DNA from: Flammeovirga sp. SJP92
GTDB lineage: Bacteria > Bacteroidota > Bacteroidia > Cytophagales > Flammeovirgaceae
Assembly: GCF_001583495.1 (NCBI RefSeq)
Contig: NZ_LQAQ01000091.1
Location: 1-64,000, forward strand
DNA length: 64,000 nucleotides
Direction: 5' to 3'
Shown: positions 5,233 to 44,329 of the stretch, one piece after another
Numbering within the stretch: position 1 is the stretch's first letter
How the letters are laid out: each line of letters begins with the position of its first letter
Made by a program: the position numbers and the translations under genes
Notes under the pieces: model-generated
What the model was told of the DNA's origin: nothing
The model's input: only the letters and a program-made list of their open reading frames with translations
Database searches by the model: none

Positions 5233-6429
5233 TTATTCACTTAATACTGTAGAAATATCACTAAACGCTTCTATTAGCATTGAAACTGCTGCATCTGAAT
5301 GACTTACTCCACCAATGAGTGTATAAGAAGCAGTGTTGTTATTTTGTTTTAATTGGTTAAATGTTTCCTCACTGGTAATAATTGGAATGATTTCATCATT
5401 TGGAGAATGGTAGAGGTAAAACGGAGCGTCTGAGGAAACATCATGTACAGAATTTTCCATTAAGTGCATATACATAGGGTGATCTGTATCTTTACTTCTC
5501 ATGCTAGCAAGGAAATCTGCATGGAATAACTCACTAAGTGTTTTGGGTAATTGATTATTTAAATCTGATGTCGAAAATCGTCCATCGAGAAGTGTCTCAA
5601 TGTTTTCTATATTTTCATTAAAAATAGGATAAGTAGCCAAATCCCAGCCATAATAAGTATAATAAGTTTGTGCAATCAATGCCAAAAACGAAGGAGAATC
5701 ATAAACATCTTGCTTCAGAACTTCTTCCATTACTCTAAGTAAATTATAACCTCCAGCTCCTGATAAAATGGCCAATACATCTAAATTTTGATCGTTTTTT
5801 TGAATATAATCAGCAACTGCCATCGAAGAGTAACCGCCTTGAGAATACCCTGTAATAAATGCTCTTTGAGTAGTGGCGATAGTCAGTTCATTTGCTAATT
5901 CTTGTGCCGCTTTTAATAAATCATGTGTTTGCTCACCTGTCTTATCTTTAATAAAATAATATTGAGGATACTCCGACGTTGAACCAAAACCTACCAAGTC
6001 TGGTACAACTATCGCGAAGCCTAAAGCAGCGCCTATTTCATAGGATGGAAGTGTGGAAACTGATGGAGCCTCGCTGTCAGCTAAAATTGTCCCTCTACTT
6101 AAAATGACCCAATCTATCTGTTGCTGATTGCTCGGGAATGCAACTATACCAGAGGCAACAATCGTTTTTCCATCTTTATCAGTAGTATTGTACTCAACGT
6201 TGTAACTTGTAAAACCACTTTGAACCAAAGGAACAACTTCTCCTAGACCTCCTAACTGTGCTAAGATGCTAATTTCTTGTTCGCTGAAGCTGTTTTTCTG
6301 GTCATAGGCTACTAAAGTTTGATTGACTTGTTTTATTTCTTCATTATCACTTGTTGAACAAGAAAAAGAGAGAAGAAGTAGAAAAAAATAAAGAGCGTTC
6401 TTTTTTGAAAAATAAAAAAATGAGGTCAT
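5233..6429 (-). CDS. lipoprotein alpha/beta hydrolase (secretory lipase/esterase-like)
   Basis: 398 residues. A lipoprotein signal peptide ends in LSFSC, placing the lipidated Cys at residue 24. The probable catalytic triad is visible: nucleophile Ser196 in GYSQGGY, Asp345 in HSPNDEIIP and His377 in GGVSHSDA, in the spacing of secreted lipase-like alpha/beta hydrolases. The large lid-like insertion between Ser and Asp (about 120 residues) is typical of this group. Substrate unknown; an ester or acyl bond is likely. The start is forced: no other ATG, GTG or TTG precedes the signal peptide core. That start codon lies inside the terminator hairpin of the upstream exporter gene, and the hairpin's U-run encodes Phe-Phe-Tyr-Phe of the signal peptide, so expression must depend on read-through or on a promoter inside the upstream gene. 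Confidence 0.8.
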   Translation of the reverse strand: MTSFFYFSKKNALYFFLLLLSFSCSTSDNEEIKQVNQTLVAYDQKNSFSEQEISILAQLGGLGEVVPLVQSGFTSYNVEYNTTDKDGKTIVASGIVAFPSNQQQIDWVILSRGTILADSEAPSVSTLPSYEIGAALGFAIVVPDLVGFGSTSEYPQYYFIKDKTGEQTHDLLKAAQELANELTIATTQRAFITGYSQGGYSSMAVADYIQKNDQNLDVLAILSGAGGYNLLRVMEEVLKQDVYDSPSFLALIAQTYYTYYGWDLATYPIFNENIENIETLLDGRFSTSDLNNQLPKTLSELFHADFLASMRSKDTDHPMYMHLMENSVHDVSSDAPFYLYHSPNDEIIPIITSEETFNQLKQNNNTASYTLIGGVSHSDAAVSMLIEAFSDISTVLSE

Positions 6430-6471
6430 ACTTTTAATTAATTGTTTTTTTTAATTTAAAAGTAAGACCTC
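6414..6471 (-). terminator. terminator of DMT exporter overlapping the next gene's start
   Basis: Long stem between 6422-6441 and 6451-6471 (GAGGTC, one mismatch, TACTTTTAA, one bulge, TTAA), then ATTTTTTTATTTTTC on the minus strand. It begins 22 nt past the stop at 6494. ATG 6429 is in its descending arm. Confidence 0.75.
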
Positions 6472-6493
6472 TAAAACACAAGAAATGTTTTCA

Positions 6494-7405
6494 TTAATTC
6501 TTAATTACTTCCTCATGTAATTTTTTCCTATTGGAAGACCTTCTATTATAATTTTGTTTTAAGAAAGGATAGGAGAGTACTGAAAGTAAAATAATGCCGG
6601 CGCCTGCATAAAACCCTGGCGTCATAGTTTCTTCTTCTCCAAAGAAAATCAAGGCTAGAATTATACCATATATAGGCTCCAAGTTAATGGTTAGGTTGAC
6701 TTGGAATGCACTTAAACTTTTTTGAATTTCAACGCAAATGGCGTAGGCAATAGTGGTACAGATTACTGCCAAAATAAATAAATATATAATATCTAACGTG
6801 GATGGAACAGCTAATAACGTTTCACTTTCAGATAGAAAAGGCAAGCAGATAAAAGCTGTGATGCATCCCCCAATCATCTCATAAAGCGTAATTTTAGGAG
6901 AAGAAATTGTTTTTACATAATTCCCATTCAATACACTAAACAATGAGCCAACAAATGCGGCACATAGTGACAAGGTTAATCCCAAAGCGTGGTCAAACTC
7001 AAATTGGAAAATGATGTAAAGTCCAATAATAACAAAAAGACCCAGAACAACTTCATAAGGTTTGATACTTGATTTTGTTAAAAGCGGTTCTAACAACGAG
7101 GTGAATAAGGCCGTTGTGGCAATACCTGCCAAGCAAACACTCACTTTTGATATTTTGGCTGAAGCAAAAAACAATATCCAATGAGAAGCGACCAGTCCTC
7201 CAGTCAGTAAAAGCTTTGTGGCTTCTTTCCAGTTGACTTTGAGTTCCCAGCCTTTGAATTTCATGAAAATTCCCATAGAAATGGCGGCGATTAGTGTCCT
7301 ATAAAACACCAATTGAAAGGAATCTAATTCGATTAATACTCCAAGGATTGCCGTAAATCCCCAGACAAAAACAATGATATGAAGTTTAACTTGCTCGTTG
7401 AACAT
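6494..7405 (-). CDS. EamA/DMT-family transporter
   Basis: 303 residues, strongly hydrophobic throughout, with about ten membrane helices in two halves, as in EamA (DUF6) drug/metabolite exporters. Recognisable family segments include FYRTLIAAISMGIFM after helix 1-2, and in the second half NLEPIYGIILALIFFGEEE, the conserved NxxPxxxxxxxxxxxGE motif. The C-terminus is basic and cytoplasmic. The substrate cannot be told from sequence; amino acids or metabolites are typical. A TACCTTTG box sits 43 bp upstream of the start and a strong terminator follows, so the gene forms its own unit, although the downstream hydrolase overlaps the terminator. Confidence 0.88.
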   Translation of the reverse strand: MFNEQVKLHIIVFVWGFTAILGVLIELDSFQLVFYRTLIAAISMGIFMKFKGWELKVNWKEATKLLLTGGLVASHWILFFASAKISKVSVCLAGIATTALFTSLLEPLLTKSSIKPYEVVLGLFVIIGLYIIFQFEFDHALGLTLSLCAAFVGSLFSVLNGNYVKTISSPKITLYEMIGGCITAFICLPFLSESETLLAVPSTLDIIYLFILAVICTTIAYAICVEIQKSLSAFQVNLTINLEPIYGIILALIFFGEEETMTPGFYAGAGIILLSVLSYPFLKQNYNRRSSNRKKLHEEVIKN

Positions 7406-7447
7406 TATTTATGGAAGTATAGGTGGCGTGTTTAAATAATTGTGCGG

Positions 7448-7455
7448 CAAAGGTA
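7448..7455 (-). promoter_or_regulatory. candidate Bacteroidota -7 box (TACCTTTG) for the DMT exporter
   Basis: Exact TAnnTTTG followed by C on the minus strand, about 43 bp before ATG 7405. The -33 position is not an obvious TTG. Confidence 0.45.
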
Positions 7456-7559
7456 TAAAAATGAACTAGAATTAACTAATTCATTTTTACAGGAAAGAAT
7501 AATAAATCTTATTAGGTGATATTCGATTTATTGGATTTAAACAATAAATGTGTTGACGC

Positions 7560-8273
7560 TTATAAATCAGTAACTTCTGTTTTTTTATAACCTCCATTAA
7601 ATGAACATTGCATTCCATGAGCATTACAATCTGTCTCCTCAATTTTTAAGGTAGTATTGGAAGGTAGGAACTCAATTTTTTCACACTTTTTCCCATTAGA
7701 ATATGTGCCTTTTCCGGAGTCATTAAATGTTGCAATTCCTTTTAAATGACCTGTGCAACCCGAAGAAGTGCCCGTTGAAAGAGTGAAATAATAAAATTGA
7801 TCGGCAATAAATTTTAGTTTTAAATTTCCAACATAAGTTTCAGAATTATATTCACTTTCATAATTACCTTCAATACTTTTAATTTTTTCGGACAATGTAA
7901 TTTCATCTTTAGACGTGACATCTAGATGACTAGATAAAGTTTTATTCTTTTTGATGTCTATCCAATTCCCATTGAATTCATCCTCATCTAATCTCCCTTT
8001 GAAACCCATTGTAAATTCAGATCCCAAATCAGGTGATTCATTCAAGGTAATTTGCCCATCTTTGAGTTGGCCTTCGAGTAGAATTTTGGTTTTGTACTTT
8101 TCGTAGTAATAGTACCCCGCCACATTTTCATTATCTATCGATAAGGTCATTGAAATTGGATACCTTTCTGCTATGAAACCAGTAAGTTGAATTTCAGTTC
8201 TGCTACTTGTTTGTGCAGAAGTATTCATGAGAATTAAAAAATTGCTTAAAATAAAAAAAATGAATTTCATCAT
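7560..8273 (-). CDS. secreted protein of unknown function, CDPS-cluster third gene
   Basis: 237 residues (or 236 if the second Met is used). The N-terminus MMKFIFFILSNFLILMNTSAQ is a signal peptide with probable cleavage after SAQ or before Q. The mature part is beta-rich, with several Gly/Tyr-containing strands (VAGYYYYEKYKTKILLEG, FTMGFKGRLDEDEFNGNW) resembling the small repeat sheets of lipocalin-like or MORN-like bacterial proteins. Four cysteines cluster in the last 60 residues (SGCTGHL, KKCEKIEF, TDCNAHGMQC), which could form two disulfides in the periplasm. I do not recognise the family. It starts 24 bp after the two-TM protein gene and lies in one direction with the cyclodipeptide synthase gene, so the three are probably co-transcribed. 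Confidence 0.6.
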   Translation of the reverse strand: MMKFIFFILSNFLILMNTSAQTSSRTEIQLTGFIAERYPISMTLSIDNENVAGYYYYEKYKTKILLEGQLKDGQITLNESPDLGSEFTMGFKGRLDEDEFNGNWIDIKKNKTLSSHLDVTSKDEITLSEKIKSIEGNYESEYNSETYVGNLKLKFIADQFYYFTLSTGTSSGCTGHLKGIATFNDSGKGTYSNGKKCEKIEFLPSNTTLKIEETDCNAHGMQCSFNGGYKKTEVTDL

Positions 8274-8297
8274 AAGTTTTTGATTTGAAATTATAGT

Positions 8298-8960
8298 CTA
8301 CAGCGTTTTTGATTTTACTTCAGCTTTGAATTTGTTTTTAGGCAACTCCAAGCTTTCTTTATTAATAGTTTTTTCTAATTCTAGATTGAAAACTAAAGAC
8401 TCAATTAGATCTTTTACAACTCTTTTATTTTTGAACTCGTAAAAGGGAGCAATTCTGTTTACATTTTCATCCTTATCAAGGATGAAAATTGGATAATGAA
8501 CTATTCTATACTTGTTAGAATTATCATCCCTTTTAATAGGACTCCAATGGTAAACTTCTTTTTCATGATATATTTTTTTGATCTTATCTTTCGGAAATAT
8601 TTCTTTATTCCTTCCATCAGAGATAATTAGAGTTTGATCTCTTACTTGGAAAATCGCCTTTTTAGAATTAAGCTTTGGTTGGAATATAAAATTACAGATG
8701 GAAATTATGATAAAAGCCCCTATAGAGAATGAAAATAGTCCTGAAATTAAAAAAAATAAGAAGGAAGCAACGGCAAAAATTCCTGATCCAATTATGATTC
8801 TATTGAAAATGCTTTCTTCGAATTCTTTGTAAAAGTAGGGGTTCCTATTTATAGGATTATTAGCGTAAATATTGGAATCAGTATGTTGCTGTAAGGGTGT
8901 TTTAACTTTATGATTTTCAATGTCATAAGCTTTTTTCTGAAATAAAGGTTGGTCTGACAT
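8298..8960 (-). CDS. two-TM membrane protein of unknown function, CDPS-cluster second gene
   Basis: 220 residues from ATG 8960 (MSDQPLFQKK). An in-frame ATG at 9011 would add 17 residues of unlikely composition. After a polar N-terminal stretch of about 60 residues, two adjacent hydrophobic helices follow (IIIGSGIFAVASFLFFLISG and FSIGAFIIISICNFIF). The cytoplasmic C-terminal domain (IFQVRDQTLIISDGRNKEIFPKDKIKKIY...) has the strand pattern of small PH-like or DUF-type membrane-associated domains. No enzyme motif was seen. The gap to the upstream synthase gene is 91 bp with this start (40 bp with the longer one). I do not recognise the family; a role in export or anchoring of the cluster product is only a guess from position. 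Confidence 0.6.
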   Translation of the reverse strand: MSDQPLFQKKAYDIENHKVKTPLQQHTDSNIYANNPINRNPYFYKEFEESIFNRIIIGSGIFAVASFLFFLISGLFSFSIGAFIIISICNFIFQPKLNSKKAIFQVRDQTLIISDGRNKEIFPKDKIKKIYHEKEVYHWSPIKRDDNSNKYRIVHYPIFILDKDENVNRIAPFYEFKNKRVVKDLIESLVFNLELEKTINKESLELPKNKFKAEVKSKTL

Positions 8961-9051
8961 GATTTTATACAATAGTTTATTTTGATGAGCTTTGTTTTGA
9001 GTGTGATTCAATGTGATTTATTGAATTAGTTTATGTTTTTGATTTGGATAC

Positions 9052-9702
9052 TTATCTATACAAGAATAATCTTATAAAATTTAAATTTTGCATTCCATTC
9101 GTATTTTTAAAATTCATCTTTTCTTGTACGTATTTCATCCATTCTGGCGTTTTTGAAGGATAAATCCTGTCGGCTTTATAATACTTGCCAATGATCGGGT
9201 ATACGGCAGCCTCTTCCAATAAGAATTTTATACTTTGCGTTTTTATAAAGTCAGTAGATTGAGATTCTCTAATTTTTCGCTTTAGATATACATCAACTTC
9301 ATAATCTATAGTGGATCTAAATAGATCATTTTTTTCATATTCTTGATCAATTGTTTCAAGATTAGAAATAAAATCTTCATCTTCTAACCATTTATCCCAT
9401 CGATTAATTTGATTGATAGCATATCTGTTCAATGTAGTTTTGTGAGTGTCAATCCAACTATTACCTTTTTCGTAAGCTATTTTTCTTGCTCTTTGATAAT
9501 CAAGATCTTCTTTTAAATAATTATGTCTATATAAGCTATCTGCCAGATTCATTACTATTTCGGAGTAGTTTTGAGAGGCCCAATTAATAATTAACTCAAA
9601 CTTTTCGTTATAATGGTTTGGGTTTGATAGACTTATTGGAATGATACATGTTTTGTTTTTAATAATTCCATTCTTTTTAATTTTAAATTCTATTCGGTCC
9701 AT
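9052..9702 (-). CDS. tRNA-dependent cyclodipeptide synthase (CDPS), probable
   Basis: 216 residues, close to the 220-250 usual for CDPSs, which use two aminoacyl-tRNAs to make a cyclic dipeptide through a covalent dipeptidyl-Ser enzyme. The N-terminal half fits the family pattern: CIIPISLSNPNHYNEKF around residues 19-35, with Ser24 at the place of the nucleophile and Asn27 three residues on; then WASQNYSEIVMNLADSLYRHN (41-61), the strand-helix with the conserved D-x-x-x-R; then RARKIAYEKGNSWI. The second half has FLLEEAAVYP (160-169, equivalent of the Y/F-x3-E pair) and IYP at 180-182, matching the YP of the XYP subgroup, not the YH of AlbC-like enzymes. Phe160 replaces the usual Tyr. A terminator at 9751-9780 isolates it from the upstream gene, so it heads its own three-gene cluster. 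No tailoring oxidase, P450 or methyltransferase is adjacent. The assignment is by motif reading. Confidence 0.78.
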   Translation of the reverse strand: MDRIEFKIKKNGIIKNKTCIIPISLSNPNHYNEKFELIINWASQNYSEIVMNLADSLYRHNYLKEDLDYQRARKIAYEKGNSWIDTHKTTLNRYAINQINRWDKWLEDEDFISNLETIDQEYEKNDLFRSTIDYEVDVYLKRKIRESQSTDFIKTQSIKFLLEEAAVYPIIGKYYKADRIYPSKTPEWMKYVQEKMNFKNTNGMQNLNFIRLFLYR

Positions 9703-9750
9703 AAGATTCAGTTTAGCTATTTAGGTTTTGCTTTAGTTGCGACAATAGTT

Positions 9751-9780
9751 AAAAAGGCTTTTCAATAGAATGAAAAGCCT
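9751..9780 (-). terminator. terminator of Dph6-like gene
   Basis: Stem AGGCTTTTC/GAAAAGCCT (9755-9763, 9772-9780) with an 8-nt loop and a TTTTT run on the minus strand. Confidence 0.8.
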
Positions 9781-9823
9781 CAATATAATATCTTTTATAT
9801 CAAAAATAAGATTGATATAGCTA

Positions 9824-10486
9824 TTATTTTACTTCACTCTCAATCTTCTCAATTTTTATAGAGTGATACTGTTCTTTTTCTTCAACACTGAAGCCTAAGT
9901 TAATTTTATTATTGAAGTAAGGAGCGTCAAGTACATTAGTATGATATTCTCCATTTTCACCACAAGGATCAATACCTGTTTTATCTTGAAGTACTTTTAG
10001 TTCTTCTACTAATTCCGCATTCAATTTTCTTCCTGTAATGTGATGTTCGAAATCTTTTTTATAAGATAATGAAATCAGGATCTCGAAATTATGCTCAATG
10101 AACTTATCCAATAAAGCCCTTCTGTCATATTCCCACAGTGGCATGTCAATTTCTAATAAACCTTTACAACATTCTTCAATGAAGTTAGGTTGGTCATTGA
10201 TAGTTGAAATATCTCCAGTGATCACAACTTCAATTCCTTCTTTTTGCAATTGAGCCATAGCGTCAATATAACCTTCCTTGAAAGGTTCTCCAATCTTAAC
10301 AAACTCATGATGGATACCAATACTAGATGATTGGGCCTTCATCAATTCTACTGGGTGGGCTACAAAATCCTTGTCAATTTTAGGAACGAATGTGACGAAT
10401 TTTTCGATGTTATATTTATCTTTTAGCTCGAAATAAGCTAAAGCGGAGTCTTTGCCACCAGTCCAAAGTACAACTGCTTTTTTCAT
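9824..10486 (-). CDS. Dph6-like ATP-pyrophosphatase (diphthine-ammonia ligase family)
   Basis: 220 residues. The PP-loop WTGGKDSALAYFEL at residues 8-21 is the SGGxDS-type adenylation motif. The rest follows the MJ0570/Dph6 family: VVITGDISTIND around residue 90 and PLWEYDRRALLDKFIEHNF around residue 117. In eukaryotes and archaea Dph6 amidates diphthine on EF2. Bacteria lack diphthamide, so the bacterial homologue must act on another carboxylate or sulfur acceptor that is not known. A terminator follows; the 228 bp upstream hold no gene that I can see. Confidence 0.82.
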   Translation of the reverse strand: MKKAVVLWTGGKDSALAYFELKDKYNIEKFVTFVPKIDKDFVAHPVELMKAQSSSIGIHHEFVKIGEPFKEGYIDAMAQLQKEGIEVVITGDISTINDQPNFIEECCKGLLEIDMPLWEYDRRALLDKFIEHNFEILISLSYKKDFEHHITGRKLNAELVEELKVLQDKTGIDPCGENGEYHTNVLDAPYFNNKINLGFSVEEKEQYHSIKIEKIESEVK

Positions 10487-10656
10487 AATACCATTAAGTT
10501 TAAAATACTGAATTTGATACGTTCAATTAAAAAAATCGATGAAATTGAATGATTCTTATAGGATGTAATTAGGGATTCATTTGTTACAATTCAAATGAAA
10601 TAACTCACTATAATTTCAATCAAAAATCATTAAGAAGAGTTTGTGATAAATTCCAA

Positions 10657-10691
10657 TAAAAAAAGAGTCTAACATTTAATATGCTAGACTC
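10657..10691 (-). terminator. terminator of LptF/LptG-family gene
   Basis: Stem GAGTCTA...TAGACTC (10665-10671, 10685-10691) extended by CAT/ATG pairing, followed by an uninterrupted T-run on the minus strand. Confidence 0.8.
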
Positions 10692-10714
10692 TCTCTTGAT
10701 CTAATCTGTTCTTC

Positions 10715-11794
10715 TTATTTCTGAACTCTAAAGTAAAGTCCAATAGTAACGAACATAAAGACGATGTTTGGCAACCATGCCGCTAAGAAAGGACTTAAAG
10801 TATCAGCCTCTGCAATTGCTCTACTCATAATTACCATTAGGAGATAGATAAATGCTAACACAAATCCCATAGCGATCAAGTAGCCTGATCCATGTCTTGA
10901 TTTCACAGATGAAACGCAAACACCCATTAGTGTAAGAAGTAAAATAGCAAATGGATAGGCATATCTTTCATAAAGTGCGTTTTCATATACACCAAGATTA
11001 GCTACACCTCTACTTCTTTCTTGTTCAATGTAATCTGACAATTCTGTATTAGTAAGTGTTTCATGAAGATTGTACTTACTTTCAAAATACTTCGGATCTA
11101 AGTTTAATTTCTTTGTAAGAGAGTTTCCTTTCGAATACTTCTGAGAACCATCAGCATTGAAAGTATACTGCTCATATTTGTCAAACTTCCACTCTTGTTT
11201 TGCGGAATCCCACTGAATTCTATTGGCAGAAATTTTCTCTAATAATTTATTGCCATCAAAAGTCTCTAGAGTAGGTCTGTAACCTCTTTTGATTCTGTTG
11301 TTATAGCTTTCTACATATAAGTAAGTAGAGTCACTTACTTTATAGTGGATATCTCTTTCGTTAAAGTAGTAAGGGCTTTTTAAGTATTTAATTTCAAAAG
11401 CAACTCTTGTCTTGGCGTTGTAAGGAACAACATAACCCACCAAAGCAAAAATAAGTAAGCCTACAGCAGATGCTCCAATAACATAAGGTAATAAGAATCT
11501 TGGATAACTTACTCCATTACTCAATACAGCAATAACTTCTGAATGTGCTGCAAGTCTTGCAGTCATAAATACAACAGCAATAAATATAGATAATGGACTC
11601 AACGTATTTACCCAGTGAATAAATAGGTTTACATAGTATTCAGTGAATACATATCCAAAATCTAAACCGTGTTTTAAAAAGTCATCCTGCTTTTCCGTGT
11701 AATCAATTACACAAACAATGATGTTTAGTAACAGTACTACAAAAATAAATGTTTTAAAAAACTTTTTAAGAATATACTTATCCAGAAGTTTCAT
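10715..11794 (-). CDS. LptF/LptG-family permease (lipopolysaccharide export)
   Basis: 359 residues with the YjgP/YjgQ architecture. Three N-terminal helices (FKTFIFVVLLLNIIVCVI, LSPLSIFIAVVFMTA, FLLPYVIGASAVGLLIFALVGYVVPYN) come first. A periplasmic beta-jellyroll of about 140 residues follows (for example YYFNERDIHYKVSDSTYLYVESYNN), then three C-terminal helices (YPFAILLLTLMGVCVSS to NIVFMFVTIGLYFR). The opening MKLLDKYILKKFFKTF is typical. With LptB2 and its partner it extracts LPS from the inner membrane and passes it to the Lpt bridge. Bacteroidota usually carry two paralogues; only one is here. It stands alone between a terminator and a 238-bp gap that contains the pyk terminator. Confidence 0.9.
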   Translation of the reverse strand: MKLLDKYILKKFFKTFIFVVLLLNIIVCVIDYTEKQDDFLKHGLDFGYVFTEYYVNLFIHWVNTLSPLSIFIAVVFMTARLAAHSEVIAVLSNGVSYPRFLLPYVIGASAVGLLIFALVGYVVPYNAKTRVAFEIKYLKSPYYFNERDIHYKVSDSTYLYVESYNNRIKRGYRPTLETFDGNKLLEKISANRIQWDSAKQEWKFDKYEQYTFNADGSQKYSKGNSLTKKLNLDPKYFESKYNLHETLTNTELSDYIEQERSRGVANLGVYENALYERYAYPFAILLLTLMGVCVSSVKSRHGSGYLIAMGFVLAFIYLLMVIMSRAIAEADTLSPFLAAWLPNIVFMFVTIGLYFRVQK

Positions 11795-24499: not shown

Positions 24500-27400
24500 T
24501 TATCTAATTAGTAATATTTGTCCTGTTTTTTCTGTGACAGATCCATCTTTTTCAGAAACGTATCGGATAGTGTAAGTGTAGTTGCCTGATATCATATCAG
24601 CACCTTTGTACTTACCATTCCAGCCGTTTCCGTTGCTACTTGCTTCAAATGAAGTTTTGTATTCTTTATGGAAAATCGATTCACCCCAGTTATTGAAAAT
24701 ATGAAGGTCAATATCGATAGCGTATGCAGGTTCTAACAGGAATTCATCATTAATACCGTCGCCGTTTGGTGTAAAGGCATTTGGTGTGTTCATTCTTGCA
24801 GGACAGATTTGATTTACTGAAATAGTATCAATAGTAGTACATCTTGTAGCGTGGGTCTCATCTGTCACCATTACAGTATATACTCCCGAACGGTCTCTAG
24901 TGACCACTCTTGAAGTTTCTCCTGTATTCCATTGGTAGGTAAAATTATTACCTTCAACAGCACCTACTTGTAATAGGTCACCAAACTCAAAACAGAATGT
25001 AGTGTCTTCCAATACCATCTCTGGGTTTGGATGGAAAGTGGCTTTAAACTCATGTGTAAATTCACACATTGTTCCTGAAGTATGTTCTACCATTGTTGTT
25101 ACAGAATAAGTGCCATTCTCTAAAACATCAATAGTAGGAGTGGTTTCTCCAGTGCTCCATGCATAAGTTTGAATTGTTCCTTCGTACTCAGGAATTCTTG
25201 CGTCAAAAGTAATGGCTTCGGTTTCACAAGACTCTTGTTCGCTATCCATATCGATATCCGGAATAACATGAACTGTGATATCATGTGTATTGATACACCC
25301 TTGTTTATTGGTTACCGTCAGTGTATAAGTCGTTTCTTTTGCTGGTGCTACTTCTATGTCTTTTGTGGTTTGACCAGTATTCCATTGGAAAGAAACAGGG
25401 ACATCTACTTCTGGTGAAAGCGTAGTCGTTAAACCTTCGCAAATCCAAATATCAGAGGCTAAAGTAACTACAGGAAGAGGAGTAACTGTAATAGAGTCAA
25501 TATAGGTGTTAGTACAACCTCCGTTATTAGTTACTTCAACAAGGACTTTGAAAGTACCTGCTTCAGGGTATTGGAAAGAAGCATTGGTTTCGAAAGCATC
25601 AAATAAGGCTCCGTTGGTTTCATTGTAATCAAAATCCCATTTTACAGCTTTTACACCATGATCACCGCTTTGGGTCAACTGTGCTGTAGTATTGACAAAC
25701 TGTGCGACTTCACCAATACAAATATCACTGAAAGTAAATGAAGGAGTAGGGATTTCATGAATTGGAACTACTGAAGTGAATGTCTCTGAAATACATCCTG
25801 CAGGTGTAATAATTCTCATATTCACAGGGTGATCACCAACTGTATTGAAAGTATAAGTAGTGTCTCCTGATGTTTGAATTTCATAAGATCCATTGTTGTC
25901 AAAATCCCATTCAAATACACTTCCTTCATGAGGAACTTCTGCATTTCTTGTAGAGAAGTGCATCAATTCTTCTTGACAACCGAATCCTTTGTCTACTACA
26001 AAATGAGCGATTGGTGTTCTATGGAACATGATATTCATGGTATCAACAGCAATACAATTTGCATTCAACTTATTATTGACTCTTAATACTACTGTACTGT
26101 TGATTTCAAATGAATTAGAATTGAAGACCGGATCAGAAAGCGATGCTAAATACGAATTCATGTTGTTTTGTGCATTTACGCTACCTCCAGTGGAATGGAT
26201 TACTTCCCATTCATAATCCATTCCGGTCAATTCTGTCTCATTAGGGCTTAACAGGAAGGTTCTTTCTTGACAATCTGCCATATCATCCGGTAAACTCACT
26301 GTAGGAGTTCTAAGGAACGTCACCACAATTTCATCTGTGCTTGTACCACAGCTGTTCAATTGGTTTTCAGTGGTCAATGAAATATAAGCGGTCACAGATG
26401 AGGCATCGTCAGGAATATTGGTTACTTCAAATGTAGGTTCATATTCTGTCGCATTATTAATAGTGATTTGGGCATTTGGATCAGATTCTCTCTTATCAGA
26501 ATCAATTCGGTTGATCACCCAATTATAACTGAAGTTACCAATCAATTCTTCATTAATAGGAGTGGTTGTGATTAGGGTTGAATCACAGCTTACTTGAATA
26601 TCTTCTCCTAATGCCGTCACTGGACTTCTAAAGAAGGTCACTTCTATGGAATCAGAAACCATTGTACAATAAGGGTTTGCTGGATTAGAAACCGTCAGTT
26701 TGTACCATGCTGAAACCTGAGCACTTCCCGTTGGGAAAGTAGGGTTATCTAAAGTAACTTCATAATCACTCATTGAACTGATACCGATATTGGCACCGTC
26801 AGTTGTATTGATTTCTGAAACAATGCTCATTCGCTCCCAAGTGTAAGTGAAGTTAGTAACTTCATTTTGAGTTGGTCTTAATGTAATCGCATTGCTATCA
26901 CATGAACTAGGGCTTGAACTTGTAATGCTCAACTCTGGCTGTTTGTGGAAACGAAGTGTGATTGTTTCTGAATCTGTACAACCACTATTACCATTTGATA
27001 CATTAAGTGTAGCTTCAATTTCAATATATGATGCACCAATTGGGAAAGTAGGGTTTGAGAAAACTAACTCATGACCTCTACTTCCGTTAGAAGTAGAATC
27101 TACCGCCCCGGTGTTATTTCCTATATCATCCGTAATATTGATTGTCCAATTATAATCAAAGTGGCTTACTAATTCTTCTCCTGTTGTGATGGTAAATTGA
27201 TTGTCTTCACAAAGGTCAGAAGCTGAGGTATTCAAGCTGATTTGAGGTGTTCTGTAGAATGTCAGACTTCTAGTATCATTCGCCAAACAAGTATTGTATT
27301 GGTAGGCATTATGAGCATCCAAATTGATTGCGAAATTAATCTCACCAGAACCTTGATTAAAGGTATTGACATCTATCAATAAACTATCAAGAACAGACAC

Positions 27401-30400
27401 AGTGTCGATTGTACCACCACTTAGATTATTGATGGTCCAATCAAATACATAATTGTTTTCTTGGCTTGAATTAATACCAAAAGTTAAGGCTTTTAATTTA
27501 GCATTGCTGTTACAATCAATCGCATTTGTCAATAAATCATTTTCAAGAATTGGTGTTTTGAAGAATGAAACGCTAATCTCTTCTGTAGTAATACATGGCT
27601 GAGAAGCATTGACATTATTATTTGTGATTTGTAATTGGTAACGTAAATCAATTCTAGTTTCACCTTGATCAAATACTGGGTTATTCAGCACTAAATCTCT
27701 CACTTGATCATTCGCCATTGAAACCGTTCCATTCGTACTGCTGAGCATTGACCACTGATAAGTATAATCACTTACCACTTCATTAAATGGACTGATTGTC
27801 ATTTCATTGGCACAGCTGTCATTTCCAGCTTTCGTTACTGTGAAATCAATCATCGGAACTCTAAAGAAGACCAATGTATGTTGTTGGGTATCACTACAAC
27901 CACTTTCATTTGGATTGTCAGCTGTCAACTCGAAGGTTACTTCAATCTGTGATCGTCCAGTACTGAAATCAGTATTACTAAAGTGAATATCAATATTCTG
28001 ATCATTATTTTGACTACTTAATAGTGAGGCTGAATTACCATTATAACCATCGATATTAACGATTGACCAATTGTAATTAAAGCCATTGATCATTTCATCA
28101 CCAAACGGTTTAATAGTCACTGAATCCAAAGCACAACCTGCGTGATTATCTGTAAATGAAATCATTGGTTGACGGGCAATCATTACTGTATAACTTGTAT
28201 CTGCATCACAGTCAGCATTCAACTGATTTTCTGCATGTACATTGTATTTCGCTGTGATTAATGCACTTCCTAAAGGGAAATCAGAAGGATCTCCGTCAAT
28301 TGTCATACTGCCAACAGTAGCTGTATTTACATTAGAAAGTGAAGAAATACTTGCTCCATTATCAGTGTAAATACTATCGATGCTCCATGTGTAAGTATAA
28401 TTATCAGTTCTTGGTTCAACGGTCTGTAATGTAAGATCACTTTGATCACAAGTACTGAAAATATTCGCGTTTAATGATAGTAAAGCATCTCTATCAAATA
28501 TCACCGTTACTTGATCTGTTGATGTACAATGATTATCAGCGTTGGTCACTGTCAATTCGTAAACTGAGGTTACTCTTACAGCGTTTTGAGGGAAACTAGG
28601 ACTATGATTTAGGGTTAACGTATGAGTATTTAGATTACTTTCTAATGGTTTAATATTAGAAGCTAATAAATCAATTCCATTATCTGTCATCACACTGATA
28701 GGAGTCCATTGATACGTAAATCCTGCATTTTCACTGTCAATAGGGAAAAGTACAACATCGGAATCCATACAAGCAGGTGTTAAGTTCAAGTGACTTAGGC
28801 TGGCTTGAGGTGTTCTGAAGAAAGTGAAATTATACGTCTCATTTCCTGTACATGCTCCCGCATTATTTGTGATAATCACTCTATAAGAAACATCAATTCT
28901 ATGACTTAATGAATCAAATGCAGTTACAGTAAATTGTGCATCTTGATTTTGAGCATCTAAATAAGTGACATCAATTGTACCTCCATTCACAGCTAATTCC
29001 GTCCAATTGTAAGTGTAATTAGGGATTGATTCTGTTCCGAATGGACGAATAACATTCACTAATTCACAATTTGTACTATCTAGAGATTGCGTGCTTTTCA
29101 GGATTGGGACTCTAAAGAATGTCGCTTCAATAGTGTCTTTATCCGTACATCCCGGCGATTGACTATTTTCTACACTCACCTCATATTCATAAGTGATTTC
29201 ACTACTTCCTGTTGGGAAAAAACCTTCAATATCAACTGGAGAATTTAAAGTGTAAGTATTGTCATTTTGGATCACTTGAGGAGCAACTAATGTCTCTGTG
29301 TTCGGATTGTGATCTACTCTTGTGTCAATCAATGTCCATAAGTAATTGAAGTTAGGAACATAAGATTCTTGGGTTGTCAATAGGATAGAAGACGATGAAC
29401 AAACTGATGATATCGGTTGAAGTGTTGCATCTGGTGTACGGTAGAATGTGAAAGTAACCGTTTCTGTATCAAAACAAGTTGTAGGGTTTTCTGAGTTACG
29501 AACAACAACATTGTAAGTGACATCAATTTTGTTTGATGTAGGGTCAAATGTTGGGCTGTCAAAAACTACATTTTGTGTTGATGAAGAAGAAATGCTGATT
29601 GTACCACCCGTTACTGTCTGAGGTGTCCACTCGTAAACAAATCCTGAAATAGTTTCATTACCGAAAGTCGTCACAGTATTTGTGCTTCCACAATCTCCGG
29701 CTATCAATGATTGTTGAATATCAATTGATGGAACTCTTAAAATCGTGAAATTGGCACTTTCAGTATCAGTACAAACTTGATTTCCTAAAGTATCATTATT
29801 TGTTACTGTCAATTGATAGCGAGCATCAATTTTATGGCTTCCAAGGTCGAATGAAGATTTTTCTAATTCTATGTCTTGTGTACTCATTGAGTAGCCGGAA
29901 GTAATTGCTACTTGACCACCTGATAATTGTGTCTGTTGCCAAGCATAATCATAACCATTTAATACTTCTGTTCCGAAAGGTCTGATCAAATTAATTGAAT
30001 CACAATTAGTGATGCTCTGAGTAAATGTAATTACAGGTTCTTTGTAGAATAAGAACGTAAATGTTGTGTCCGCTTGACAAGTAGTGTTTTCGTTATTCTC
30101 TACAGTCAATGCCACGTTAATTCTAATCGTATCGCTTCCATTATCAAACACCGGATTACTAAACGTCAGATCTTGATCCGTTAGTGATGAGTTGGTGATT
30201 GAACCACCTACTTCTGTAAAGCTCCAGTTAAAAGTAAAGGCAGAAGAAACATTTTCAGAACCAAAAGGAGTGATTGTATTCGTGATTCCACAACCTGCTA
30301 AACTTTGTTGGATATCAATTACTGGCGGTCTGTAGAATACCATTGTATGATTGTGGGCATTTACGCAACTGTTTTGATCCGTATTCTCAATAGAAATTGT

Positions 30401-33400
30401 CACCGGAATTTCAATCTTATTACTTCCATCCGCAAAAGCTTCAAGAGGAAGTGTCAAACTTAAGTTTTGGCTATTGACTTGACTATAGAAACTGTTGATA
30501 ACCGAACTAGGTAATCTATTATTATCAGCACCTGTTACATTTAAGCTATCATAAGACCACGTATAATCAAAACCGCTATTGTGAGCAATTACCTCTGTAG
30601 TACCTAATGGTGAAAGTGTCATTTCTAATCCACAAATTCCATCCGCTCTGCTTTCATTGAAATTCGTAAAATCAGCTTGACGGTAGAGTGTTGTGGCAAT
30701 ACTCATTGAGTCTTCACAACTCGTCGCATTTCTATTATAAGTTTCTAATAAATAACGTGTGTCAATTCTAGTCGAATTCAGATCGAAAGAATCCACCGTC
30801 AATGTGATATTTTCATCATTGGTATTGGTACTTGTAGTGATTGTACCACCTGTTCTTGATACTTCCGACCAAGTGTTATTGTAGCTTCCAATAGCTTCAT
30901 TAGCAAAAGGTGAGATCGTCAAAGCGTTAGAACAACTATCAGCTGTTGCTCTTGTATAGGCAAGGTTGATATCTGGTGTACGGTAAAAAGTGAATGAGAC
31001 AGTTTCTGTATCAAAACAAGTCGTAGGGTTTTCTGAGTTTCTAGCTACAACCGTATAAGTGACATCAATTTGATGTGAAGAAGCATCAAAAACAGGAGTA
31101 TCAAAAGTGACGTTTTGAGTTGAATTAGAAGAGAGGTTGATTGTACCTCCAAGAACTGAAACTGGCGTCCATCCAAACGTAAATCCTGTAATTGTTTCTG
31201 TACCAAAAGTGGTTACAGTGTTTGAATTGCCACAGTCTCCTGCTACTAATGACTGCTGAATTGTCATAGATGGAACTCTAAGGATAGTGAAATTGGCACT
31301 TTCAGTATCAGTACAAACTTGATTTCCTAAAGTATCATTATTTGTTACTGTCAATTCATAACGAGCATCGATTTTATGGCTTCCAAGGTCGAATGAAGAT
31401 TTTTCTAATTCTAGGTCTTGCGTACTCATTGAGTATCCTGAAGCTATTACAATCTGACCACCCGATAATTGTGTTTGTTGCCAAGCATAATCATAACCGT
31501 TCAATATTTCCGTTCCGAAAGGTCTGATAAGGTTGATTGAATCACAATTTGTAATGCTCTGAGTAAATGTAATTACAGGTTCTTTGTAGAATAAGAAAGT
31601 AAACGCTGTGTCCGCTTGACAAATAGTGTTTTCATTATTTTCTACGGTCAATGCTACATTAATTCTTATGGTGTCACTTCCATTATCAAACACTGGATTG
31701 CTAAACGTCAAATCTTGATCCGTTAGTGATGAGTTGGTAATCGAACCACCTACTTCAGTAAAGCTCCAGTTAAAAGTAAAGGCAGAAGAAACATTTTCAT
31801 TACCGAAAGGTGTGATCGTATTTGTGATGCCACAACCAGCCAAACTTTGTTGTATATCAATTACCGGTGGTCTGTAGAATACCATTGTATGATTATGGGC
31901 ATTTACGCAACTGTTTTGATCCGTATTCTCAATAGAAATAGTAACCGGAATTTCAATTTTATTACTTCCATCCGCAAAGGCTTCAAGAGGAAGTGTTAAG
32001 CTTAAGTTTTGGCTATTGACTTGACTATAGAAACTGTTGATTACTGCACTTGGTAATCGATCATTATCAGCACCTGTTACATTCAAACTATCATAAGACC
32101 ACGTATAATCGAAACCGCTATTATGTGGAATTGCCTCCGTAGTGCCTAATGGTGAGAGCGTCATTTCTAATCCACATATTCCGTCCGCTCTGCTTTCATT
32201 GAAATTCGTAAAATCAGCTTGACGGTAGAGTGTTGTAGCAATACTCATTGAGTCCTCACAATTCGTTGCATTTCTATTGTAAGTTTCAAGTAAATAACGT
32301 GTATCAATTCTAGTCGAATTCAGATCGAAAGAATCCACCGTCAATGTGATATTTTCATCATTGGTATTGGTACTTGTAGTGATTGTACCACCTGTTCTTG
32401 ATACTTCCGACCAAGTGTTATTGTAGCTTCCAATAGCTTCATTAGCAAAAGGTGAGATCGTCAAAGCGTTAGAACAACTATCAGCTGTTGCTCTTGTATA
32501 GGCAAGGTTGATATCTGGTGTACGGTAAAAAGTGAATGAGACAGTTTCTGTATCAAAACAAGTCGTAGGGTTTTCTGAGTTTCTAGCTACAACCGTATAA
32601 GTGACATCAATTTGATGTGAAGAAGCATCAAATACAGGAGTGTCAAAAGTAACGTTTTGAGTTGAAGTAGAAGAGTGGTTGATCGTACCTCCAAGGACTG
32701 TCACAGGTGTCCATTCATATACAAATCCTGTGATTGTTTCTGTTCCAAATGTAGTTACTGTATTAGTAGGTCCGCAATCACCTGCTGATAATGTTTGCTG
32801 TATATTGATGGATGGTACTCTTAAAATAGTAAATGAAGTACTATCAATATCAGAACATAAAGCATTACCCAAGGTATCCGTATTACTAGCCGTCAATTTA
32901 TATTCAGCATCGATTTTATGACTTCCTGAATCAAAGGATACCATTTCTAATTCGATATCTTGAGTAGATAATGAATAACCTGATGTGATGCCTAATTGAC
33001 CTCCTGAACGCTGAGTTTCTTCCCAAACGTAAGTAAAACCATTTAAGATTTCTGTTCCATGCGGTTGAATTAGATTGATGGAATCACAACCTGTCAGACT
33101 TTGTGTAAAGTTGATGACTGGCTCTTTGTAGAATAAGAAAGTGAATGCTGTATCGGCTTGACAAGTTGTATTCTCAATATTTTCTACTGTAAGTGCTACA
33201 TTGATTCTAATGGTGTCGCTTCCATTATTAAATACAGGGTTTGTAAAAGTGAGGTCTTGATCGGTTAATGAAGAATTAGTCACTGTACCGCCAACTTCCG
33301 TAAAGCTCCAATTGAAATTGAAAGCTGATGAAACATTTTCAGTACCGAAAGAGGTGATGGTATTGGCAACTCCACAACTCGTTAAACTTTGCTGAATATC

Positions 33401-36400
33401 AATCACAGGTGGTCTGTAGAATACCATGGTATGATTGTACGCATTTACACAGCTATTTTGATCTGTATTTTCAATAGAAATCGTAACTGGGATTTCAATC
33501 TTATTACTACCGTCAGCAAAGGCTTCTAATGGGAGTGTCAAACTTAAATTTTGGTTATTGATTTGACTGTAGAAGCTATTAATCACAGCAGTAGGTAAAA
33601 TATCATTATCTGCTCCTGTTACATTTACACTGTCATAAGACCACGTGTAATCAAAACCACTGTCATGCGGGATGTTTTCTACTAGACCTAATGGCGAAAG
33701 TGTCATCTCTAATCCACAAATTCCATCCGCTCTGCTTTCGTTGAAATTCGTGAAATCAGCTTGGCGGTATAATGTAGTCGCTAAACTCATAGAGTCTTCA
33801 CAAGCGACAGAGTTGGTATTAAATGAAGTCAATAAATATCTTGTGTCAATACGTGTGGAATTGATAGCAAATGTATCTAAAGTGATGGTTAAATCTTCGT
33901 CTGTTAAAGAAGAAGTTGTAATTGCACCACCTGTTCTTGTAACTTCGCTCCAAGCATTTGTAAAACCATTGATTCCTTCACCTGCATAAGGAGCAATTGT
34001 TAAAGCATTGGCACATGAATCCGCTGTAGCTCTTGTGTAAGTGAGGTTGATCTCTGGATGACGGTATAATGTAAAGCTAAATGTAGTGTCGTCATCACAC
34101 ATAGATTCTCCTGAGTTGAGAAGTGTGATCATGTAAGTTGAGTTGATCTCACTTTCCGTAGGGTCGTAATCTACCGCAGTAAATGTGATCGTTCGATTTC
34201 CGTCATGGTTCGTAGGGTTTGTAACTACTGTTCCTCCAGATTCACTGATTAATGTCCAATCAAAATCAACATCTAATAACATTTCATTAGTAGAAGATAC
34301 CATTACTGCATTTTGACAAGCTCCAGTCATACTTGTAAGCATCACTTCTGGAGTTCTGTAGAAACGGAAACTCACGGTGTCTTCTGCAAAACAAGTCGGT
34401 TGATTCGAATTGATCACTCTTAATTTATAGTGAGCGGTCATAATAGAATGAAGATCCGTAAAGCTATCTACTAGCACATTTAATTCTCTATTGGCCAAAC
34501 CGCTATCATCAATGACCACGCCTGAAACTTCTCCATTAGTAGTGGACATAGAATCTAAACTCCATTGATAAACATAACCGTTGATGTGTGTGTCAAATGG
34601 CGACGCTACTCCAGTGTTATCACATTGCTGTGCTTTAGTGGATAAGAAATTAGTTTTGATTTGAGGGGTTCTGTAGAAATAGAAAGTATAAGTCTGTGTA
34701 TTTCTACAGCTATTATCTAAAATAGCTTCGTTATTGACAGCTGTCAACTCGATTGTAATTGCAATGACCGATTCTGTGTCTATAAAATCATCATCAGTTA
34801 CTGTGAATGAAGGGTTTTGAGTAGTGTAAGTGTCATTGACAGCATAAGTGCTACCATCATAACCTGTGATGTTTTGAATTTCCCAATTGTAAGAGAAACC
34901 ATTGATTATCTCTCCTCCAAATGGTTGTAATGTTGTGGTCAAATCACATGAATCTGCTTTCTGCTCTGAGAAGCTGATATCAGGATATCTATAATATTGG
35001 AACATTACAGTTTTACTCGAATCAGCACATGTAATGTTTGAATTAGAATGTCTGATATTCAAATCCATATTGAAACGAAGGATATGAGCACCATTCTCGT
35101 AATCACCGTCAACTACACTAACATTTAAGTTTTGGCTATTTTCATTTAAACTTAATGTATTTAGAATCGTTGCTGAAAGCGTGTTTCCATCTGCACCAGC
35201 CCCTGATACTGAAGTAGGGTCGAGTGTCCATGTGTAGTCAAATCCATTGTTATGATTAATTACTTCTGTCAATCCTAAAGGTGAAACTTGAACTAAGCCT
35301 CCACAGAACCCTAAAGGTTGTTGTTCATCGTAACTGTCATAATTTGGCGTTCTATAGAAATAGAATTCAACTGTATCTTTATCTACACAGCTTGTAGAGG
35401 CAGAGTTTACCGCTGTCAATTCATACTGAACGGTAATGGTTGTTGAATTTAAATCAAAAGTATTTGCAGTGATATCTAAATCAAGATCGGAGTTGGTAGA
35501 GTTTTGAGTAATTGTACCACCACTAACAGAAAGCTGTCTCCAAATTCTTGTAAATAATGGAATATCTTCACCGTTAAAAGGTTGAATCACATCTGCTAAT
35601 GCACAAGAATCCGTTTTTGTGGATGCAAATTGAATCTCTGGAGTTCTGAAGAATGTGACTTGGAAAGTAGTATCATCATCACAAGTGTGCGTGGATGGGT
35701 TACTGATAGAAAGGGTATATTCTGCATCGATTTGTACAGCATCGGTATCCCATGAAGCAACATCAATGGTGAAAACTTCTGTACCACCTGCTGTGCTATC
35801 AATTGTACCGCCAGAAATTGAATTTAAATTCCAATAGAAATCCGATCCGTAATGAATATAAGCTTCATTGGTTGATCTGAATGTCATTGAAGAATCGATA
35901 GAAGCACAATAAGACATTGGGTCATCAAATGCCATTTCTGGTGTTCTATAAAACTCAAAGTCTACTGTTTCCTCATCATAACAATCAGGATATTCTGTAT
36001 TGAAAACTCTCAATCTATATTGAGCATCAACCTGAAGACTATTCGTAGCAAAAGTATCTAATGAAACTGTGATTTGACGATCTGTTAAAGAAGAATTGGT
36101 CACCGCTCCATCTGTTTCACCTACTTTGGTCCAAACGTAACTAAATCCATTGACATTGGTAGCAAAAGGTTCAGATGTAGCAGTATGATCACAAGTGTTG
36201 ACTTTGTTGGATAGGAAAGGAGTAGCGATTTCTGGTGTTCTATAGAAAATCAAAGTATCCCTAACAATATCAATACATGATGAATCTGCCGGTGATAATT
36301 GATTTTGAACTTCTAATGAAACAATCATTTCGATCTTTGCTTCAGTAGGTGTAAAATCACTATCTACCAGATTTACATTAAGGTCTTGTGTCGTAAAGGT

Positions 36401-39400
36401 TTGCCCAACTCCGTAAGTAGTATTGGTGTAATTCGTAATGGAAACAACTTCCCAATCATAATTAAATCCTGTGATGGTTTCTGTACCAAAAGGTTGGAGA
36501 GTGGTAGAAAGAGCACAACTATCCGCTTTCACTTCCACCATGTCAATTACTGGAGGTCGTTTGAATGAAAGAAGAATAGTGGAATCAACAGCACAATTTA
36601 CGCCTGATGCTGAGTGTTCAATATTTAAATCTAATTCAAAAGTGATTTCATTACTGCCCGCATCAAAAGCCGTTAAAGGCATATTCAAATTAAAGTTCTG
36701 TGTGTTGACTTGGTTTGTAATGTCTGTAATTACAGAAGCTGGTAAAGTGTTAGAAGGTGCTCCTGTAACTGTTGATGCGTCTAAAGTCCATGTATAATCA
36801 AATCCTTCAGTGTGATTGATGACTTCAACAGTATCTAAAGGATATAATTCTACCGATAAGCCACATTCACTATTAGGTTTTTGCTTTCTGAAAACATTTA
36901 AATTAGGTGTTCTGTAAAATTGGAACATTACAGTGTCAATATCACTACAACCTGTAGCATCACTATTCTCAACATACAGTTCATAAGCGACATCAATAAA
37001 AGCGGTGTCTTGATCAAAACTTGTAACATTGAAAGTAAGATCCTGATCTGTTAGAGCATTTGTAGTGATCGTACCTCCATTGACATATAGCTCTCTCCAT
37101 TGGTAATTATACCCTGTGATTGCAGTAGTACCAAATGGTCTGAATGTATTGGTTAATGCACATGAATCCGATCTTGTATCTGTAAAAGCAATATCAGGTG
37201 TTCTGTAAAAAACGATATCAAAAGTGGTATCATTGTCACAAGTACTTGCAGTTGAATTGGCAATATTGACAGTGTAATTACCATCAATTCTGTGTGATGT
37301 TGGATCGAAATTATCTACCTCAATGATATATTCATTACCATTGTCAGTTGTGTTTAAAGTACCACCTGAAACCGTATTTTCAACCCAAGTGAAAGTTGCT
37401 GTGTTCAATGCTTCATTATTGGCCGTAACGGTATCCACTAATGCACAATTTAATGCTGTTGGGTTATAAGAGATTTCTGGAGTTCTATGGAATTCAATTG
37501 TATAATTTTCTACATCCATACAAGTTGTCGAAGCGGAATTGGTTACTGTTAATTCATACGTTACAGTAATGACTGTTTCTCCAGTATTCCAACTTCCCAC
37601 AGAAAGATTGATGTCTTTATTGCTAGTAGCGTCGTGATTTACAGTTCCGTTTGAAACGGATGTTTGTACCCAAGTATAATCAAATCCAGGGATGACTTCA
37701 CTTCCAGAAGAAAGCATCACGTTTGTAGCACAATTATTTCCGCTAGGCCAAGTTTCAGAGAAATTGATATCTGGAGTTCTAAAGAAATCTAAAGAGATAT
37801 CTCTATTGATACCACATCGAGGAGAAGAGTTTTTTCGAACTCTATTGTTCATTACTATCGTAAACTGAGATTCACCTGTAGCGAAATCAGCATCCGTAAA
37901 GTTCAATGTTCTAGTTTGAGCATAAGTATCAGGAATTGAAGCTCCATTATATTCTGCACTTGCGGAAGTAGCTCTCCATCTATAATCAAAATCAAGTGTT
38001 TCTGTGTGATGATTTAACGTCACTGACAAATTACATGGATCAACTCTAGGGTCCATTAAGTTTAACTCTCTTGGTCTTCTTTCAATATTGACAATAAAAG
38101 AGGTATCTTTTAAGCAAGTGTTATCAAAGCTGTTTTCAACATGTAAATCGATTTCAAACCAAAGATTTAAAGAGTCATCTTTGAAATAATCTTCCACTAC
38201 ATCTAAAGAAAGGTTTTGCACTGTATCACTAGCTGTTACTTGATTAATCAAAGCACTTAAGAAAGCTGGATCAACGTTATGATCACTTGCACTTGAAGAC
38301 ATAGACCAAGTGTAATCATAAGCGGTGTTGTGAGGTAAAGATTCTGTTAGTCCAAAAGGATGAAAATCGACAACGTATAAACTTCTATTTGATGTGTTAC
38401 AAGTTGGATAAGCATGGCTTAAAGAAGCAAAATCAGGTCTTCTGTAAAATTCAAATTCAATACTATCTCTATCTGTACAGCCAATTGCATTGGTAACATC
38501 AATATAATATTTCGATCGAATAATAGTCGATCCATCATTATAGCTGTTAGGACGAACGGTAAAATTCTGATCTGTAAGGTTTGTTTCAGTCACTGTTCCA
38601 CCAGTAAGGTAAACTTGTGTCCATTGATACGTAAATCCATTGATAGTTTCAGCACCAAACGGCAAGGCTTCGTAATACGCGGAAGTATCACAGGCCATTA
38701 AAGTTGTATCTAAAGCGATATTAGGGAAACGGTGAAATTGAACATCAACAGTATCAAACGTTGTACATGCAGTAGGATGATTGTTGTCTACAATTCCCAA
38801 TTGATATCTAACATCAATTACACTTTCCCCAGCATTAAAGTTACTTTCATTGACATCAACAGTAGCGGTGTGTGAATTAAGATTGTTTTCAATGACAGTT
38901 CCGTTCGTAGGTCCTGTAAGTTTAGACCAAGTGTAAGCAAAGTTAGTGCTGTCATTTGCAATAGGTCTTAAAGAAACGGTTTGGTCATCACAAACGATCA
39001 AGCTATCTGTTCCAATTTCAGGATCTGGATTTTCTCTTACATGAACAGTTATACTATTATTATGACTACAACCTCTAGCAGTCGTGACCATTAGTCGAAC
39101 TGTATAAGTTCCTTCATTGGCATAAGTATGTGCGGGGTTTTGAACAGAAGACCAATTTCCATCACCAAAGTCCCATACCCAAGCATTGATATCATTTACG
39201 CCAGCAGGTAAAACTCCACTGCCAATGTAAGAAGCAATATTTGCATTACTCACTGTTGAAAGGTCATTGAATTGCATTTCTTGACCTAAACAAACTTCAT
39301 TACTTAAAGCATCCGATGTTCGTTGTGCAGAAAGATTAGCCACAGGATCATCAAATGAGAAAACTAGGAGAGAATCAGTCGAAGGGACGTAATCAAAAGT

Positions 39401-44212: not shown

Positions 44213-44329
44213 AATATCTATGTTCAGCACACTTAAAAGGAAGGTCAGCCCTTTTCTTTATAGTTAGTGAGTAATTGGTACAATTAATATTTAGCGTTGG
44301 ATAGCTTTCAAGACACTTTTAGGTGTATT

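Follow-up and report, generated by a model that had tools for sequence, protein, structure and literature searches.

The minus-strand open reading frame at positions 9052–9702 of the window (here, the whole analysed stretch of 64,000 nucleotides from Flammeovirga sp. SJP92) encodes a protein of 216 amino acid residues, which is, in our opinion, rather probably a new divergent cyclodipeptide synthase (CDPS) of the XYP type, presumably an orphan one, located in a strain-variable slot; its activity is predicted. The initial annotation described this frame as a CDPS with a probable catalytic Ser24 and the motifs PISLSN, DSLYRHN, FLLEE and IYP, which are numbered here as PIS24LSN, D55SLYRHN, F160LLEE and IY181P182, and the reading frame, the motifs, the homology to CDPSs and the residue map are in agreement with this description. 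The protein adds to the Bacteroidota a divergent XYP candidate that is just missed by two curated profile cut-offs.

Up to E 10, the only Pfam match of the protein was PF16715, which covered residues 19–152. Comparison with this profile had been suggested as a check of the annotation, and it gave a low E value (5.6e-6), yet a score of 26.7 bits, narrowly below the curated cut-off of 27; the NCBIfam profile TIGR04539 also scored narrowly below its own cut-off (E 5.9e-11, 42.3 bits against 45). The homology was made firm by searches of the PDB. Using the single sequence, 7 distinct CDPS sequences were found at E <1e-4, the best of them being 5ocd (4.6e-14); another of the seven, 5mlp, is deposited as uncharacterized and is titled CDPS in the fold-match listing. 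Using a three-sequence profile composed of the window protein and two other Bacteroidota CDPSs, 22 distinct CDPS sequences were obtained, including 5ocd (4.1e-33), AlbC (4.3e-6) and YvmC (6.7e-4), and row 23 of the list was an unrelated protein with E 0.31. These sequence comparisons firmly support the assignment of the protein as a genuine but divergent CDPS homologue.

The structure predicted from a two-row alignment was of low confidence (pLDDT 52.1, pTM 0.46). The top 48 PDB matches of this model were all CDPS chains, with the best E of 6.5e-5 and TM values not exceeding 0.48; 8 of them had E ≤0.001, and 5ocd was the first among the fold matches. Such a model may be said only to agree with the CDPS homology. 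The possibility that the CDPS is truncated was considered and rejected, as 35 residues follow Tyr181, which resembles the situation in AlbC.

The XYP enzymes of Fluoribacter dumoffii (5ocd) and Nocardia brasiliensis (Nbra-CDPS, 5mlq) are homologous to the window protein, possess the same Ser/Glu/Tyr set and Tyr-Pro signature and are among the best fold matches of the low-confidence model. They differ from it in that the identity is 22–25%, and the window protein carries Phe at the site of Tyr178 and lies just under both family cut-offs. AlbC from Streptomyces noursei, a member of the NYH subfamily, belongs to the same family by the profile match mentioned above, but has His203 after Tyr202, according to a passage of PMC5935735, where the window protein has Pro182. 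The AlbC operon includes an oxidoreductase, as stated in a section of PMC2922099, whereas none was seen near the window CDPS. Among the Bacteroidota, the structure of a CDPS from Porphyromonas gingivalis (9gun) has also been solved; it was missed by the single-sequence search and found by the profile at 9.1e-11.

In an alignment of five CDPSs, the residues Ser24, Asp55, Arg59, His60, Arg101, Trp102, Glu163, Glu164, Tyr181 and Pro182 are invariant. According to the residue map, S24, E164 and Y181 are the equivalents of catalytic Ser37, Glu182 and Tyr202 of the family, and Y181–P182 coincides with the Tyr202-Pro203 pair of the XYP type, which admits any residue at site 40, here N27. By analogy with the family mechanism, outlined in parts of PMC5935735 and PMC7566563, the class-I-aaRS-like fold would bind one aminoacyl-tRNA, the amino acid of this first substrate would be transferred to Ser24, Glu164 would help to couple the second aminoacyl-tRNA, Tyr181 would relay a proton at ring closure, and a plain, unmodified cyclodipeptide would be released. 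The structural data on the pockets all come from NYH enzymes in the relevant portion of PMC5816076.

The site of catalytic Tyr178 is occupied in the window protein by Phe160. The residues S34, Y172 and Y194 of Nbra-CDPS, equated with S37, Y178 and Y202 of AlbC in an excerpt of PMC13062777, align with S24, F160 and Y181 once it is allowed for that the numbering of the PDB chain is shifted by one residue. Within the five-CDPS alignment, Phe at this site is common to the window protein and a Cytophagales CDPS encoded in the metagenome-assembled record JAAFKA010000013.1 (L021/L023), while Tyr is present in 5ocd, Nbra-CDPS and one more Bacteroidota CDPS (L003); alignments examined by eye, for 9gun that to L003, place Tyr there in 9j61 and 9gun as well. 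The Cytophagales CDPS shows 25% identity to the window protein over residues 14–183 and also has the DxLYRHNY motif in common with it.

The AlbC mutant Y178F was substantially impaired both in activity and in acyl-enzyme formation, as reported in a passage of PMC5935735, and four catalytic residues are almost strictly conserved in active CDPSs, according to a part of PMC7566563. Because of these data and the presence of Phe160 at the Tyr178 site, the cyclodipeptide synthase activity predicted from the sequence is likely but not safe; it may be low or altered, since Phe160 replaces the tyrosine that AlbC needs. It is possible, if doubtful, that the chemistry is changed or weakened to such an extent that Phe160 slows the loading of Ser24, and the protein forms little cyclodipeptide, produces a linear dipeptide or plays another role connected with aminoacyl-tRNA. 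The distribution of Phe and Tyr among the five aligned proteins and the behaviour of AlbC Y178F speak for such a change, as does the inclusion of Y167F among the active-site mutants of ParcuCDPS made to confirm the loss of activity (an excerpt of PMC7613923), but the Phe-bearing Cytophagales relative retains the other residues and, with 49.6 bits, exceeds the Pfam cut-off. Simple decay is at odds with the occurrence of an identical conservative substitution in a pair of proteins sharing only about 25% of their residues. A phenylalanine in place of a supposedly near-invariant catalytic tyrosine, common to the window protein and one diverged relative, provides a direct test of the degree to which this tyrosine is essential outside AlbC.

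Two further minus-strand frames follow the CDPS gene in the same direction, as had been annotated, namely 8298–9011 (237 residues from a TTG codon) and 7560–8273 (237 residues), with gaps of 40 nt and 24 nt, respectively. The only internal Met of the first protein is residue 18, so its TTG start is doubtful, an ATG start at codon 18 is possible, and the 40-nt gap may be longer. This protein contains a single hydrophobic stretch, residues 67–112, which is long enough for the two transmembrane (TM) helices proposed earlier, and a C-terminal soluble part. As for the protein at 7560–8273, the four Cys residues noted in it were found at positions 173, 197, 216 and 223, and the designation "secreted" is a fair guess: its N-terminal hydrophobic stretch was below the threshold used, while that of its counterpart in a congener (G004, see below) passed.

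The neighbouring proteins gave only weak Pfam matches, all far below the cut-offs (DUF2207_C, E 0.014; DUF5832, E 0.21; DUF2147, E 0.23), and the PDB search with profiles of both revealed no match among solved structures. A single-sequence structure model of the secreted-type protein was too poor to be of use (pLDDT 37.5). A phage origin or a role in defence was rejected, since neither PHROGs nor PADLOC gave any match to the three proteins, and an Rfam scan of positions 6000–11000 also found nothing.

The terminator annotated upstream of the CDPS gene stood up to folding: a stem at 9754–9781 of the minus strand, followed by a T run, had an energy of -15.2 kcal/mol and a z value of -6.0, and 0 of 200 shuffled sequences were as good. 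This hairpin, absent from the list of a consensus terminator scan, ends the gene of a diphthamide-synthase-type ATPase (PF01902; 9824–10486, minus strand). The common strand, the short gaps and the upstream terminator are all consistent with an operon dedicated to a diketopiperazine, whose two-TM protein would export the product, anchor it or protect the cell against it, and whose secreted protein would act outside the cell. When the related genomes discussed below are taken into account, such an operon seems unlikely.

The arrangement was compared in three congeners, designated G003, G004 and G005 (stretches L018, L016 and L017, respectively; the window genome is G000). Reading of the open frames showed that the flanks are collinear in all of them, with LptF/G and the diphthamide-type ATPase on one side and the EamA transporter (6494–7405 of the window, minus strand, assigned by Pfam and found at the same place in the three stretches), a lipase-like hydrolase and Usp on the other, the names being those of the Pfam matches of the window copies. 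The ATPase is 91, 89 and 88% identical in G004, G005 and G003, respectively. The content of the ATPase–EamA interval differs. In the window, it includes the CDPS, two-TM and secreted genes. In G004, the slot contains the genes of a 366-residue membrane protein and of a secreted protein, in the same order and free of CDPS; the second half of the 366-residue protein is related to the two-TM protein (26% identity, E 3e-7), and the secreted proteins are 57% identical. In G003 and G005, the slot is filled by one unrelated 611-residue protein (L018 2574–4409, plus strand; L017 3797–5632, minus strand). FG-GAP repeats and a tail for type IX secretion were recognized in the G003 copy of the latter, and the G005 copy looks alike by eye.

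No CDPS was found by tblastn (E ≤0.1) in the slot stretches of G003, G004 and G005, and the stretch of G004 contained no CDPS trace by blastn either. The two neighbours had no tblastn match in the stretches of G003 and G005. In the blastn comparison with G004, the DNA of the window ceased to match where the ATPase gene ends and matched again at about 8286, just before the secreted gene. The secreted gene is, therefore, independent of the CDPS. The strain-variable block at 8286–9823, which comprises the CDPS and two-TM genes, had no blastn match (E 1e-3) to the corresponding interval of G003, G004 or G005.

This common block is the further argument for a dedicated operon, which is opposed by the situation in G004, where this locus is occupied by the secreted gene and a diverged membrane gene, while a CDPS is absent. 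The CDPS and two-TM genes could have arrived together, since they lie in the same non-homologous block and have a similarly low G+C content (28.1 and 28.6%, compared with 31.5% in the secreted gene and 34.6% in the window). The low G+C content hints at a foreign origin shared by the two genes, but does not prove it. A very improbable extension of this idea is that Phe marks a subgroup of Cytophagales CDPS-like proteins with shifted chemistry, for example, release of a linear dipeptide or transfer of an amino acid to some acceptor in the membrane, that would work with the two-TM protein of the same acquired block.

The two-TM gene of the window (8298–9011) is far more diverged from its G004 relative (L016 2615–3715; 26–28% identity) than its neighbours are. 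The G004 protein is longer and possesses a second hydrophobic unit.

Searching with profiles extended these comparisons to the order. Relatives of the secreted protein (profile A5) were found in 32 of 221 genomes, the window genome and G004 included. Among 37 matches, 4 covered nearly the whole profile (G000, G004, G450 and G492), 28 only its N-terminal part and 5 only its C-terminal part; many were in frames of 340–420 residues, and the two scanned ones (L026 and L028) carry DUF3298. No CDPS was detected by tblastn in 3.7 kb around the secreted-type genes of G450 and G492, nor did a CDPS protein search match anything in nine genomes with A5 matches (G004, G021, G031, G034, G035, G037, G040, G052 and G055). 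Profile A6, composed of the two-TM proteins of the window and G004, matched 3 of 221 genomes, namely these two and, weakly and partially, G529 (E 2.6e-4). In both full cases of this family, the secreted gene adjoins, and the CDPS is present in one.

The initial annotation had also proposed to check whether the neighbours stay with the synthase in other genomes. Three further loci with a CDPS from Bacteroidota (L003, L020 and L021 = L023; 3.5 to 11.5 kb each) were searched by tblastn at E ≤0.1 and contained neither of them. Together with the wide occurrence of secreted-protein relatives in the order, this result argues against the dedicated operon and against the earlier idea of new export, anchoring or immunity parts. 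The two neighbour genes are more likely local residents of the slot than new parts of a pathway, and the secreted gene would be another occupant of the slot, neither a tailoring nor an export component. The comparison of these loci is a warning not to assign genes to a pathway simply because they are neighbours.

In Pfam scans of the CDPS neighbours (4 and then 20 further window proteins), P450s, cyclodipeptide oxidases and MFS exporters were all absent, in line with what had been annotated for the two genes behind the CDPS. These scans covered genes up to 50222 other than those of pyruvate kinase and a 6576-residue frame, and the proteins found in them include the EamA transporter, the LptF/G permease and a SpoU-type RNA methylase. 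Nor do the two neighbours recur with a CDPS, as the tailoring or transport genes of a diketopiperazine cluster would: they stand without one in G004 and were not found at the three other Bacteroidota CDPS loci. Elsewhere in the window genome, P450 matches occur at three places, on contigs C15 (319915–322791) and C120 (9637–10176), while the CDPS is on C91, so the cyclodipeptide could conceivably be tailored by unlinked genes. Two of these three places are side by side on one contig.

A search of 58 relatives with the CDPS protein matched the window genome and, weakly, one other genome (G001, E 0.009). The latter match (L002) was rejected, as on reading it proved to be an unrelated secreted protein matched by chance. 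The searches reported no CDPS for the remaining 8 genomes of the genus, nor for 9 genomes of the family. It is, therefore, improbable that the three genes represent an ancestral set, with the CDPS as an older state of the slot that was lost in G004: the arrangement in G004, where a related membrane gene is likewise followed by the secreted gene, would fit this scheme, but no other family member searched was reported to have a CDPS, and the G004 stretch retains no trace of one. In the preferred reading, the CDPS would be an orphan gene, probably a recent arrival, and its strain-variable slot is flanked by conserved genes. The searches revealed no close homologue of the CDPS, and it is from the distribution alone that we infer its horizontal arrival.

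In wider sets, PF16715 was found in at least 2 of 395 Bacteroidia genomes and TIGR04539 in at least 3 of 390 genomes of the order, the window genome being counted in both, whereas profile A3 matched at least 1 of 395 genomes of the phylum sample, that is, only the gene of the window itself. The PF16715 and TIGR04539 counts are lower bounds, as the control set gave 0 of 14 well-known genomes. This set included Bacillus subtilis, which has the CDPS YvmC, so whole-genome searches may miss CDPSs. Due to these silent controls, our confidence in the orphan XYP CDPS was slightly lowered.

Of the 55 pattern matches in a profile scan of contigs (alignment A2), one was confirmed, L023, whose CDPS is identical to that of L021 and which belongs to the same order as the window genome. 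No CDPS relatives were found in viral contigs (in one scan, 0 of 95 pattern matches were confirmed) or in the scans of plasmids and phages. A literature search that combined cyclodipeptide synthase with Flammeovirga found no paper. CDPSs of Bacteroidetes have been noted before: one gene is mentioned in a section of PMC4159871, and a CDPS cluster detected by antiSMASH in Kordia is described in a part of PMC7477175.

In two of the other Bacteroidota loci, a helix-turn-helix (HTH) protein of about 400 residues directly precedes the CDPS gene (L003 249–1436 and 1423–2121; L023 4716–5921 and 5941–6645, the HTH protein of L023 being identical to that of L021). These HTH proteins are homologous to each other (E 2e-11), and since they precede two distant CDPS genes, a conserved HTH–CDPS gene pair may exist; the window genome differs in having no match to this protein. 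On the minus strand of the window, positions 24500–44230 form a single open frame of 6576 residues beside a PorP/SprF gene (44424–45488); the product of this long frame is perhaps a giant surface protein secreted by the type IX system.
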